Positions 4,202-8,707 of a DNA stretch of 11,329 nucleotides are shown here, piece after piece. The notes beneath the pieces are model-generated. The model made no database searches, was not told where the DNA came from, and saw nothing but the letters and a program-made list of their open reading frames with translations. This DNA is from a bacterium (GTDB taxonomy: Bacteria; JAJVIF01; JAGGVT01). Position 1 is the stretch's first letter. The number at the start of each line of letters is the position of its first letter. Position numbers and translations under genes: made by a program. The stretch lies in NCBI GenBank assembly GCA_021157815.1, contig JAGGVT010000029.1, forward strand, positions 1 to 11,329, given 5' to 3'.

Positions 4202-5098
4202 ATGAAACGCAATGTTTTATTCCTGTTGATCGCATTACTATCCACCTTACTGTTATCCGTTTCTTGCGGAGGAAACCAGGCAACGGACGACGCGTCCGGA
4301 AAGCGGGATGCATCGCAGACTCAGAGGCAGTCCATCACAATTAAAGGCTCGGACACCATGGTTCATCTGGTGAGTACCTGGGCTGAAGCGTTCATGGAGA
4401 AAAATCCCGACATTGATGTATCAGTGACGGGAGGCGGCTCCGGAACCGGGATCGCAGCGCTCCTCAACGGCACGACCGATATTTGCGCGGCATCCAGAAA
4501 AATCAAGGACAAGGAAACTCAACTCGCGGAGCAAAAGGAAATTACTCCGGTTGAGAAAATTGTCGCTCGTGATGGCATCGCCGTAATCACAAACCCCGAA
4601 AATCCGGTAACTGAACTGACACTTGGGCAGTTGAAGGATATCTTCACTGGAACATGCACGTCATGGGACGGGGTCGGCGGACAGTCCGAAAATATTGTGA
4701 TTTTGTCGAGAGAAAACAACTCCGGCACGTATGTCTTTTTCCAGAAGAAGGTTCTTCAGAAAGAGGATTATGCGGGATCGGCGCGATTGATGCCGGCAAC
4801 ATCGGCGATTGTCCAGTCAGTTACAGATGACAAATGGTCAATCGGATATGTAGGGCTTGGCTTCGCATTGAGCGCTGGCGAAAAAGTGACGGTAATCAAA
4901 GTTAAAACCAGCGATGACTCTGAAGGAGTTACGCCATCTGAAGCGACGGTCAGATCGGGAGATTATCCGATAGCACGACCGCTTCACCTTTACACAAACG
5001 GGGAGCCATCAGGCGCGGTTAAATCGTTCATCGATTTCTGCATCTCTGCTGAAGGGCAGACTATCGTTCAGGAAACCGGTTATGTACCCGCGGGGTAA
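4202..5098 (+). CDS. pstS: Phosphate ABC transporter substrate-binding lipoprotein PstS
   Basis: Captures inorganic phosphate outside the inner membrane and delivers it to the PstCA channel. The 298 residues begin with a Lys/Arg-containing n-region and a hydrophobic stretch ending LLSVSC, so Cys22 is the likely lipidation site; the -3 residue is Ser rather than the more common Leu, a relaxed lipobox. A polar linker follows (about 23-43), then the PstS fold: IKGSDTM near 47-53 and TGGGSGTG at 76-83, both anion-binding turns, and SRENNSGT at 169-176 with the Arg and Ser-Gly-Thr that coordinate phosphate in the family, then the family-typical IGYVGLGFA. The start is fixed by the GAGGTGA site. 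First gene of pstSCAB-phoU, with pstC only 3 bp downstream. Confidence 0.95.
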   Translation: MKRNVLFLLIALLSTLLLSVSCGGNQATDDASGKRDASQTQRQSITIKGSDTMVHLVSTWAEAFMEKNPDIDVSVTGGGSGTGIAALLNGTTDICAASRKIKDKETQLAEQKEITPVEKIVARDGIAVITNPENPVTELTLGQLKDIFTGTCTSWDGVGGQSENIVILSRENNSGTYVFFQKKVLQKEDYAGSARLMPATSAIVQSVTDDKWSIGYVGLGFALSAGEKVTVIKVKTSDDSEGVTPSEATVRSGDYPIARPLHLYTNGEPSGAVKSFIDFCISAEGQTIVQETGYVPAG

Positions 5099-5101
5099 TT
5101 A

Positions 5102-5977
5102 TTGAAACACCGATGGAAAGATAAAGCGATAAGGCTTGCTTTTACCGCGTTAGCGTCAACGAGCATCCTTGTCGTTGTTTTGATTTTTCTCTTTCTCGGC
5201 AAAGAGGCGTTTGGGTTTATATTCGAACCCGGATTGAAGGAACTTTTGAACACACGATGGATTCCGGTCTCTTTTAAAAGGGAGACTTTCGGAATCATAC
5301 CTCTCATCACAGGTTCCGCGCTTGTTACGCTTTGGGCGACTCTAATCGCGGTTCCAATCAGCATCTTAAGCGCGGTCTATATTTCCGAGTTTGCGGGTGA
5401 CCGTGAGAAGGAAATCCTCAAGCCGGTGATTGAACTGCTTGCGGGGATACCATCCGTAGTGCTTGGGTTTTTCGGCCTTATTGTTTTGGCGCCTATTGTT
5501 AAACAGGCATTCGGATTGTCAACGGGATTAATAGCGCTGACAGGCGCAATTCTACTGGCGTTTATGGCAATCCCGACGATGGTTTCAATTGCTGAGGATG
5601 CAATTAGAAGCACTCCCAAATCATTTCGGAACGCATCTTTGGCTCTTGGCGCCAGCAGATTGCAGACAACGTGGAAAGTCATTGTTCCCGCAGCGCTTCC
5701 AGGAATTGTCGCTGCGGTTATGCTTGGAATGGGGCGTGTGATTGGTGAGACTATGGCTGTAATGATGGTCACCGGCAACGCCGCTATAATCACCGGCTCG
5801 CCGCTTGAATCTGTACGGACGCTCACAGCGACAATCGCAGCTGAAATGGGCGAGGTCCCGTTTGGAAGTACGCATTACCAGGCGTTATTCTGCGTTGGAA
5901 TTGTATTGCTTATTACGACTTTCTTTATCAATTTCATAGCCCAGAAAGTGCTTGAACGGCACAGGGATGTTACATGA
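5102..5977 (+). CDS. pstC: Phosphate ABC transporter permease PstC
   Basis: One of two channel-forming inner-membrane subunits of the Pst transporter. The 291 residues give a typical hydropathy pattern: an N-terminal helix (about 11-35), a polar periplasmic segment, then five further hydrophobic segments from about residue 60 on. The cytoplasmic EAA-type loop that contacts PstB is SLALGASRLQTTWKVIVP around residues 178-195, followed by the family signature GRVIGETMAVMMVTGNA. The start codon is TTG at 5102: no ATG or GTG lies near it, the N-terminus it gives matches family length, and GGGG (5092-5095), overlapping the end of pstS, serves as a weak ribosome site. The gene is separated from pstS by 3 bp and overlaps pstA by 4 bp (ATGA), indicating translational coupling. 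Confidence 0.95.
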   Translation: MKHRWKDKAIRLAFTALASTSILVVVLIFLFLGKEAFGFIFEPGLKELLNTRWIPVSFKRETFGIIPLITGSALVTLWATLIAVPISILSAVYISEFAGDREKEILKPVIELLAGIPSVVLGFFGLIVLAPIVKQAFGLSTGLIALTGAILLAFMAIPTMVSIAEDAIRSTPKSFRNASLALGASRLQTTWKVIVPAALPGIVAAVMLGMGRVIGETMAVMMVTGNAAIITGSPLESVRTLTATIAAEMGEVPFGSTHYQALFCVGIVLLITTFFINFIAQKVLERHRDVT

Positions 5978-6822
5978 GCAGAGGATCTGACAAAATCTTC
6001 ATCTGGGTTATGCGCCTTGCGACTTATGGCGTTGTTGCTGTTATCGCGTGGATTCTGCTTGATATTATTGTCAAGGGCGCACCCGGAATCAACTGGGAAT
6101 TTATCAGCGCATATCCGAAAAAAAGCGGCGCTGAGGGCGGAATCCTTCCCGCGATTGTCGGAACGCTTTGCCTTGTGATTGGAACAATAGTTGTCGCATT
6201 GCCACTCGGAATGGCCACCGCGATTTACCTTGCCGAATTCGCAAGGCAGGGTAAGTTCACGCGCGGTATTCGCCTTGCGGTGGCGACACTGGCGGGTGTG
6301 CCGTCAATTGTTTTCGGGCTTTTCGGACTTGGTTTGTTTGTACTTTTTTTAGGTATGGGAGCCTCAATTGCAGCCGGATGCCTTACTCTGGCTTGCATGA
6401 TATTGCCTACGATAATCGTATCATCCGAAGAAGCTCTTCATGCTGTTCCACGGTCTTTAAGAGAGGGGAGTCTGGCGATGGGAGCGACGAAATGGCAGAG
6501 CATTAGAACTAACGTGCTGCCGTACGCGCTTCCCGGAATGTTAACCGGCTCGATTTTAGGAATCGGGCGGGCGGCTGGTGAAACCGCACCGATTCTGCTA
6601 ACAGTAGCCGCGTTTTTCCTGCCACGGCTTCCCTCCTCAATTTTGGATCAGGTTATGGCGCTTCCATATCACCTGTATGTCCTTGCGACACAGCATCCCG
6701 AAGCTGAAAAGGTACGTCCAATGCAGTACAGCACAGCTCTTGTCCTGATGATTCTTGTCATAACAGTAAACATGGGAGCGATTCTTCTGCGAGTAAAGAT
6801 TCGAAAAAGGCTTAAATGGTAG
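5974..6822 (+). CDS. pstA: Phosphate ABC transporter permease PstA
   Basis: Second inner-membrane channel subunit, pairing with PstC. The 282 residues begin with a hydrophobic helix (about 12-32). The periplasmic segment [20 protein letters not shown] follows, with the Gly-Gly-Ile-Leu-Pro stretch typical of PstA, then four to five more membrane segments. The EAA-type coupling loop [18 protein letters not shown] lies around residues 166-183, followed by [13 protein letters not shown], a strong PstA signature. Its ATG overlaps the pstC stop as ATGA, and its last codons overlap pstB by 7 bp, so the three transport genes are tightly coupled. The C-terminus is short and basic ([10 protein letters not shown]), placing it in the cytoplasm. 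Confidence 0.95.
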
Positions 6823-7607
6823 AAGAGAATAAAACAAATAACATGCAATCGGAAAACATTTCTATTGTAGTCCGCGATGTCGATTTCTATTACGGCTTAA
6901 AACAAGTGCTATTTTCCGTCACGATGGATATTCCGTCAACGAGAGTAACAGCGTTGATTGGTCCCTCCGGATGCGGGAAATCGACATTCCTTCGCACATT
7001 GAACAGGATGAACGATACAATAGACGGCACAAAAATTGAAGGCACAATTGAAATCAACGGGAAGAATATATACGCGCCTGATACCGATGTCGTTCAACTG
7101 AGAAAAAAAGTCGGCATGGTTTTCCAAAAATCAAATCCATTTCCAAAATCGATTTTTGATAATGTTGCGTATGGTCCCAGAATACATGGGATGCGTGATA
7201 AATCGAAACTGACAGAAGTTGTGGAGATGTCGCTTAAACGTGTCGGACTCTGGAACGAGGTTAGCGATAGAATGAACGACAGCGCTCTTGGATTGTCCGG
7301 CGGACAGCAGCAGCGTCTTTGTATCGCGCGTGCACTCGCGGTTGAGCCGGAAATTCTTCTCATGGATGAACCGGCATCGGCACTGGACCCACAGGCGACA
7401 TCCACAATCGAGGATTTGATTAAGGAACTGCGAAAGCACTACACTATCATCATCGTGACACACAATATGCAGCAGGCGGCGCGTGTGTCCGATTACACTG
7501 CCTTTTTCTTTGAGGGAAAACTTATTGAATACGATGATACGAAATTGATATTCACCAAGCCAGTAAAGAAACAAACCGAGGATTATATTACAGGCAAGTT
7601 CGGATAG
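6816..7607 (+). CDS. pstB: Phosphate ABC transporter ATP-binding protein PstB
   Basis: Cytoplasmic ATPase that drives phosphate import through PstCA. All ABC motifs are present in 263 residues: Walker [10 protein letters not shown] (49-57); a Q-loop in [18 protein letters not shown], the phosphate-specific variant; signature LSGGQQQR (160-167); Walker B ILLMDEP with Asp184 and catalytic Glu185; D-loop SALDP; and switch His216 in VTHNMQQA. The final EDYITGKFG matches the usual PstB end. ATG 6816 overlaps pstA by 7 bp and has AAAAAGG (6804-6810) five bases upstream. A later in-frame ATG at 6843 would remove a non-conserved N-terminal tail, but its upstream site is poorly placed. phoU follows after 30 bp. 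Confidence 0.96.
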
Positions 7608-7637
7608 GGTATTTCTATTTACCAACGGAGAATAATC

Positions 7638-8300
7638 ATGACAAAACACATGCAAAAAGAACTGCTGAAACTGCGAAAGATGCTTCTTGGACTGTGTGAA
7701 ATAGCTGAGGAAAGTGTTATTAATTCGGTTGAGGCTTTCTCGACAAGGGATGTGGAACTTGCCAGAACTATTGTTATAGGCGACGATGACATTGACCGCA
7801 TTGAGGTCGAAATCGAAGAGGAATGCCTGAAGATTCTCGCTCTGCACCAACCCGTCGCTATTGATTTGAGATTTGTTATCACAGCATTGAAAATGAACAA
7901 CGACCTTGAACGCGTCGGCGACCAGGCGGTAAAAATCGCTTATAAAGCTAAGGATTTGTCAAAATTATCAGAACTGCCGGTTAAGATAGACTTGCATCCG
8001 CTTACGGAAATCACCCGTGAGATGCTTCGTGACGCACTCGACTCGCTGATAAATCTCGACTGCCCTCTCGCTGAAAAGGTGCGAACATCCGATGACAAAG
8101 CAAACGAACTTAAACTTCAGATTAGAGATACAACATTGGCTGCCATGATGAAATATCCTGAAAGTATCGAGGGAATTATTCTGATTCTTGGTGTCGCGCG
8201 GTCTCTTGAGCGAATATCGGATTTGGCAACGAACATCGCCGAGGATGTCATTTACCTTGTTGATGGCGAAATCGTCCGCCACAGCCATGATGATGATTGA
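7638..8300 (+). CDS. phoU: Phosphate signalling protein PhoU
   Basis: Peripheral cytoplasmic regulator that links Pst transporter status to the phosphate sensor kinase and restrains uptake when phosphate is plentiful. The 220 residues form two homologous three-helix PhoU repeats. The first carries DIDRIEVEIEEECLKIL and ALKMNNDLERVGDQAVKIA (about 50-110); the second carries KANELKLQIRDT and ARSLERISDLATNIAEDV (about 152-210). The E/DxxxD elements in ERVGD and ERISD are the metal-cluster motif of the family. A ribosome site GGAG (7625-7628) precedes the ATG. It is the last gene of the operon, and its acidic/His-rich tail HSHDDD ends at TGA. No response regulator or kinase gene follows; the next gene is convergent. 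Confidence 0.95.
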   Translation: MTKHMQKELLKLRKMLLGLCEIAEESVINSVEAFSTRDVELARTIVIGDDDIDRIEVEIEEECLKILALHQPVAIDLRFVITALKMNNDLERVGDQAVKIAYKAKDLSKLSELPVKIDLHPLTEITREMLRDALDSLINLDCPLAEKVRTSDDKANELKLQIRDTTLAAMMKYPESIEGIILILGVARSLERISDLATNIAEDVIYLVDGEIVRHSHDDD

Positions 8301-8333
8301 TGTAAATTCCCTATAATGTTGCCTGATACATCA
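8298..8333. terminator. Possible weak bidirectional stem-loop between convergent genes
   Basis: TGATGTA (8298-8304) pairs with TACATCA (8327-8333) around a 22-base loop, so the stem contains the TGA stops of both phoU and the convergent small membrane gene. It is AT-rich with no T-run, so it is weak as an intrinsic terminator. Confidence 0.25.
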
Positions 8334-8696
8334 GATAGCGAAACAGGAGGCGCCGATTAGCAGTATTGCCAGAATGAATCCGACAATGAAGGACGTGACT
8401 ACCATCACGATGTAAACCATGAGTGAACGCCCAAATGATTCATTGAGGATATATTTAATCAACAGGGTGCAGATAACGGCCGCTAGCACCCAGTTTAGAA
8501 ATGCGCTTGGCATGTTGAATAACACACTGCAAATGCCGTACAGAAGAGCAATGAGGAAAAACTTTCCGAAATAAGCGTCATAGATATCCATGTAGCGCGC
8601 AGCGTACATCAGGATGAAAGTGTTGAATATGATTCCGATGGCAGTGATAAACACGATCATGCCCGGAGATGGAGGTGCTCAACATCCGCCTGCCAT
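8331..8696 (-). CDS. Small four-helix membrane protein, candidate selenoprotein with an N-terminal Cys-Sec(TGA) pair
   Basis: Not a recognised family. Read from ATG at 8696 it has 121 residues: MAGGC, an in-frame TGA (8679-8681), APPSPG, then a hydrophobic protein with segments at about 13-32, 44-60, 64-84 and 91-115, ending at TGA 8331-8333. The 8696 start has an excellent ribosome site (AGGAG, 8703-8707, 6-base gap). The alternative, an in-frame ATG at 8660 after the TGA, has no ribosome site and sits inside a hairpin. If TGA is read as selenocysteine, residues 5-6 are a vicinal Cys-Sec pair before the first helix, a plausible redox or metal site. Other genes here end at TGA, so global recoding is unlikely. 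Alternatives are a 5-residue leader coupled to a 109-residue protein starting at 8660, or a TGT/TGC-to-TGA sequence error. The open membrane reading frame is confident; recoding is inferred. Confidence 0.6.
8640..8663 (-). promoter_or_regulatory. Candidate bacterial SECIS-like hairpin
   Basis: In the mRNA, GGCA (8663-8660) pairs with UGCC (8643-8640) and UGAU (8659-8656) pairs with AUCA (8648-8645). A single C (8644) is bulged and the 7-nt loop CGUGUUU contains GU. The stem starts 15 nt after the in-frame TGA and the loop 23 nt after it, within the spacing known for bacterial SECIS elements. The bulge is on the 3' side, unlike the bulged U of E. coli fdhF. Confidence 0.45.
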
Positions 8697-8702
8697 GTTA
8701 AT

Positions 8703-8707
8703 CTCCT
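8703..8707 (-). promoter_or_regulatory. Ribosome binding site that decides the start of the small membrane gene
   Basis: AGGAG on the minus strand (within AAAGGAGAT, 8701-8709) lies 6 bases before ATG 8696. It points to initiation upstream of the in-frame TGA rather than at the downstream ATG 8660. Confidence 0.75.

Follow-up and report, generated by a model that had tools for sequence, protein, structure and literature searches.

A probable orphan membrane selenoprotein with a putative N-terminal Cys-Sec site in a selenocysteine-decoding bacterium

According to a 2026 review (PMC13188914), prokaryotic selenoproteins comprise 119 families and subfamilies, and most of those characterized adopt a thioredoxin-like fold. 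Several catalogued selenoproteins carry a CU motif: KCU-star/DUF466 (NF033934), SaoC (NF040734), SaoL (NF040728), HgcA (NF040863), MbdU (NF045648), and the Csac_0668 family (PMC13188914 Table 1). The candidate gene described here shares with these proteins a vicinal Cys-Sec pair in which the Sec comes from TGA; in contrast to them, its CU lies at residues 5-6, just ahead of four transmembrane helices. Compared by description, no four-helix membrane protein with an N-terminal Cys-Sec appears among the entries of that table that we consulted.

The analyzed stretch of DNA (the window, 11,329 nt) is contig C24 of a 3.2-Mb host genome (G000) that is 91% complete and consists of 221 contigs. The minus strand reads ...CAAAGGAGATTAAC ATG GCA GGC GGA TGT TGA GCA CCT CCA TCT CCG GGC ATG ATC... 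As a sequence-only reading of this DNA had proposed, a Shine-Dalgarno sequence, AGGAG (positions 8703-8707, minus strand), is located 6 nt 5' of an ATG at 8696; the frame opened by this ATG reads MAGGC-TGA-APPSPG and runs on into a membrane protein ORF. The TGA (8679-8681, minus strand) is codon 6, the proposed selenocysteine, and codon 5 is TGT (Cys); beyond TGA 8681-8679 the frame stays open down to the TGA at 8333-8331. The read-through gene (8331-8696, minus strand), delineated from the sequence, a structure model, and a paralogue alignment, has 121 codons for amino acids, MAGGC-U-APPSPG followed by the four-helix membrane protein. Table-11 ORF calling yields only a 109-aa ORF from ATG 8660 (8331-8660, minus strand), just as had been anticipated for standard annotation, and no Shine-Dalgarno site precedes that codon. 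An apparent pstS-pstC-pstA-pstB-phoU phosphate operon (recognized by eye) occupies positions 4202-8300 in convergent orientation, 30 nt from the end of the candidate gene, and an ORF at 2126-2947 resembles, also by eye, a LarE-type ATP-dependent sulfur transferase.

When the intergenic region was shuffled, 0.48% of the shuffles produced an AGGAG/GGAGG start in frame and no more than 20 codons upstream. As a background count, strong Shine-Dalgarno starts that bridge a stop within 15 codons were tallied in sampled stretches of the host genome (352 kb); 3 of 278 long ORFs had one, one across TAA and two across TGA, the candidate gene included. The candidate is the sole member of this trio that was searched for homologues, and a homologue supports its bridged segment. 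The other two are located in L051 (contig C211), at 2319 on the plus strand (MLSIARGCID-TAA) and at 8180 on the minus strand (MAVHL-TGA), and are probably due to chance.

The homologue is a paralogue, P0002, encoded in the same genome (C51:10858-11241, equivalent to L005:1859-2242); it has 127 aa, belongs to no named family, and is 39-40% identical to the candidate. Its ATG has its own AGGAG and occupies the same start position, and its frame contains no internal stop. The segment MAGGCUAPPSPGM aligns without gaps with MTPDAFPMPSPSM of P0002, from residue 1. Between the TGA and ATG 8660, P9, S10, and P11, before helix 1, are identical in the two proteins, the Ser10 codon being TCT in one copy and TCC in the other. 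In a codon comparison, 25 of the 48 identical residues are encoded by different synonymous codons; the similarity between the two genes is therefore at the protein level. The BLOSUM score of the extension against P0002 was reached by 1.9% of base shuffles. The gap-free alignment and the retained PSP make it very probable that the segment ahead of ATG 8660 belongs to the coding sequence, and a gene start at ATG 8696 is strongly supported. The two proteins also share, by alignment, the four helices, the Asp37, Asp40, FGK, and GR motifs, and a C-terminal Cys. They differ at the site of interest: the N-terminus of P0002 is MTPDAF, with Ala-Phe (Phe codon TTC) where the candidate has Cys5-Sec6, and on the 5' side of the TGA, M1 is the sole residue identical between them.

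The host genome encodes most of the machinery for selenocysteine incorporation. A selA gene is located on C211 (E-value 4e-135), and selB follows immediately 3' of it, cut by the contig end; the selA-selB operon spans G000:C211:15930-18943 (L006). A tRNA-Sec with a UCA anticodon was detected at 65.5 bits (gathering score 47). Of the four genes that the sequence-only reading had named as a check, selA, selB (truncated), and selC were thus recovered, and selD was not found in the 91%-complete assembly. Two weak selD matches were judged, by reading the sequences, to be ThiL and PurM. According to an abstract (PMC4561486), the conservation of SPS/SelD extends to all genomes with selenoprotein genes, and for this reason an assembly gap is the likeliest explanation for the missing gene. 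Upstream of selA-selB lie genes that resemble those of a rex-like repressor and a GspE-type ATPase as well as ispH; selD is not among them. In the phylum's other three genomes, neither tRNA-Sec above the gathering score nor selD above the cut-off was detected; the Sec trait is therefore patchy in this phylum.

A formate dehydrogenase served as an internal control. The gene for the FdnG-type alpha subunit, FdhA (L032, G000:C37, minus strand), contains a single in-frame TGA at position 15436, in the context VEHQARI-TGA-HSSTVASLAATFGRGAMT (also given as VEHQARI-TGA-HSSTVASLAATFGRGAMTSHW), which is the Sec position of FdnG-type enzymes. Because SelA, SelB, and tRNA-Sec are present and the FdhA TGA falls exactly at this known Sec site, the host evidently reads TGA as Sec in one or more of its genes. 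FdhA, a second selenoprotein in this host, has a twin-arginine-like N-terminus (DRRQFL), and its gene is followed by that for an iron-sulphur subunit. A code in which TGA is reassigned was ruled out, since the candidate gene also ends in TGA and a Sec system is present in the genome.

We compared the sequence downstream of the candidate TGA with the bacterial SECIS (bSECIS) model, whose limits, as given in PMC13188914, are an apical loop of 3-9 nt, a G in the first two loop positions, a distance of 16-37 nt from the UGA, and an MFE of -7.5 or lower. Folding revealed a 34-nt candidate hairpin, UCCGGGCAUGAU-CGUGUUU-AUCACUGCCAUCGGA (8634-8667, minus strand), that lies within every one of these limits: the apical loop (8655-8649) has 7 nt and begins 23 nt past the UGA, loop position 2 is a G followed by a U, and the MFE is -10.5. 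The FdhA control passes the model, and P0002 fails it. The specificity of the model is low, with 36 of 250 random TGAs passing (14%), or 13 of 250 (5%) when G followed by G or U was required, and the stability of the hairpin does not exceed that of shuffled sequence (z = -0.33). The hairpin lends weak support to the selenocysteine reading.

Relatives were sought with the protein or its alignment in collections of genome and viral contigs, by tblastn of phages and plasmids, and in sets of 97 and 385 related genomes as well as in the four-genome phylum. These searches returned P0002 and two weak matches, in G001 and G105. The match in G001 is partial and lies inside a 516-codon frame. The match in G105 (L033, 1477-1872; E-value 1.5e-5), the sole genome of a different phylum, has a similar helix pattern, starts near helix 1 without a MAGGC-type N-terminus, and may belong to the same superfamily. 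No convincing homologue was detected in the three other genomes of the host's phylum. Conservation of MAGGC(C/U), which had been put forward as a check, was not observed: the sole full homologue has MTPDAF, and L033 begins almost directly at helix 1. Real Sec sites usually, though not of necessity, have Cys relatives. No homologue with Cys or Sec at the TGA position was found in the genome contigs, viral contigs, phages, plasmids, or related genomes, and the lack of a Cys relative at the Cys5-Sec6 position is the main weakness of the Sec reading.

No profile in NCBIfam, Pfam, or PHROGs matched above its curated cut-off, and in NCBIfam no model matched at an E-value of 1 or lower, in agreement with the earlier reading, which did not recognize this family among the known selenoproteins; an Rfam scan of the window returned nothing relevant. 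DUF7473 (PF24285) and Yip1 (PF04893) have the same multi-helix membrane layout, with Pfam scores far below threshold (window protein: 13.9, gathering score 27; paralogue: 15.9, gathering score 28.6) that probably reflect shared membrane composition. The only other site in the host genome with the pattern ATG-N3-GGN-GGN-TGY-TGA (C61:5280) is out of frame within a 1076-aa ORF, its read-through is full of stops, and we attribute it to chance.

In the reading we prefer, translation would start at ATG 8696, and the sixth codon, UGA, would be read as selenocysteine by SelA, SelB, and tRNA-Sec, directed by the stem-loop that begins 11 nt downstream of the UGA. The product would be a membrane protein of 121 residues and four helices whose short N-terminal tail carries the vicinal pair Cys5-Sec6. 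On balance we regard it as probable that the gene encodes an orphan selenoprotein with a Cys-Sec site at the membrane surface and no match among the family models that were scanned. Sec at codon 6 specifically is what we infer: a Sec-decoding host, the FdhA control, and the bSECIS-compatible hairpin agree with this part of the sequence-only reading, whereas Ala-Phe in P0002, the absence of a Cys or Sec homologue in the collections scanned, and the missing selD do not.

In the main rival, codon 6 of an ordinary membrane protein gene was originally a sense codon, and the TGA arose by a recent nonsense mutation or reflects an assembly or base-call error. The intact P0002, with Phe (TTC) at this position and Ala before it, would fit such a history, as would the empty search for Cys or Sec homologues and the single, fragmented assembly of 221 contigs. 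However, the remaining 115 codons of the frame carry no other lesion, and the stop is a TGA that directly follows a Cys codon, in a genome that decodes Sec, with a bSECIS-compatible hairpin after it; we consider this explanation unlikely, at roughly one chance in five. Next in order, MAGGC could be a leader peptide that terminates at the TGA, with reinitiation at ATG 8660 producing a plain 109-aa protein. ATG 8660 is 18 nt past the TGA, within reach of reinitiation, and has no Shine-Dalgarno sequence, and L033, possibly a distant relative, has its start near helix 1; yet APPSPG is conserved at the protein level with P0002 (identical PSP, the synonymous change at Ser10, and the shuffle result), which translates this segment without an internal stop, so that leader and reinitiation appear less likely still. 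That the upstream ATG and its Shine-Dalgarno sequence are coincidental, with translation from ATG 8660, where standard ORF calling starts, or from another codon, is very improbable, given that an in-frame strong start arises by chance at a rate of only about 0.5% and that P0002 begins at the corresponding codon and has an AGGAG of its own.

We modeled the structure with single-sequence AlphaFold2, which gave four helices (residues 11-35, 40-59, 65-84, and 91-120; mean pLDDT 65), consistent with the four-helix membrane protein that had been predicted. A Foldseek fold search with this low-confidence model returned no match (best E-value 2.5). The sole Lys and Arg residues, R34, K45, K81, and R90, lie within loops 1-2 and 3-4 or close to them; the positive-inside rule would then orient both termini and loop 2-3 outward. 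With this topology, Cys5-Sec6 would share a face of the membrane with Cys118, which is located at the end of helix 4. To judge from the Cys-Sec pair, the site would most likely be a thiol/selenol redox site or a soft-metal site at the membrane surface.

The candidate would represent a new family within the well-known bacterial recoding of Sec, not a new kind of system. We give about even chances to a lineage-restricted family, found in a single lineage within a small phylum, that combines an outward-facing N-terminal Cys-Sec with four helices, that has a duplicate without a redox residue at that site, and in which Sec was gained or lost without a visible Cys intermediate. If true, so small an integral membrane protein, its Sec at residue 6, would have an architecture unlike that of the thioredoxin-like majority, and the Phe-bearing P0002 would be an exception to the usual exchange of Sec and Cys. 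The locus would also show that annotation can trim Sec genes to plain membrane ORFs.
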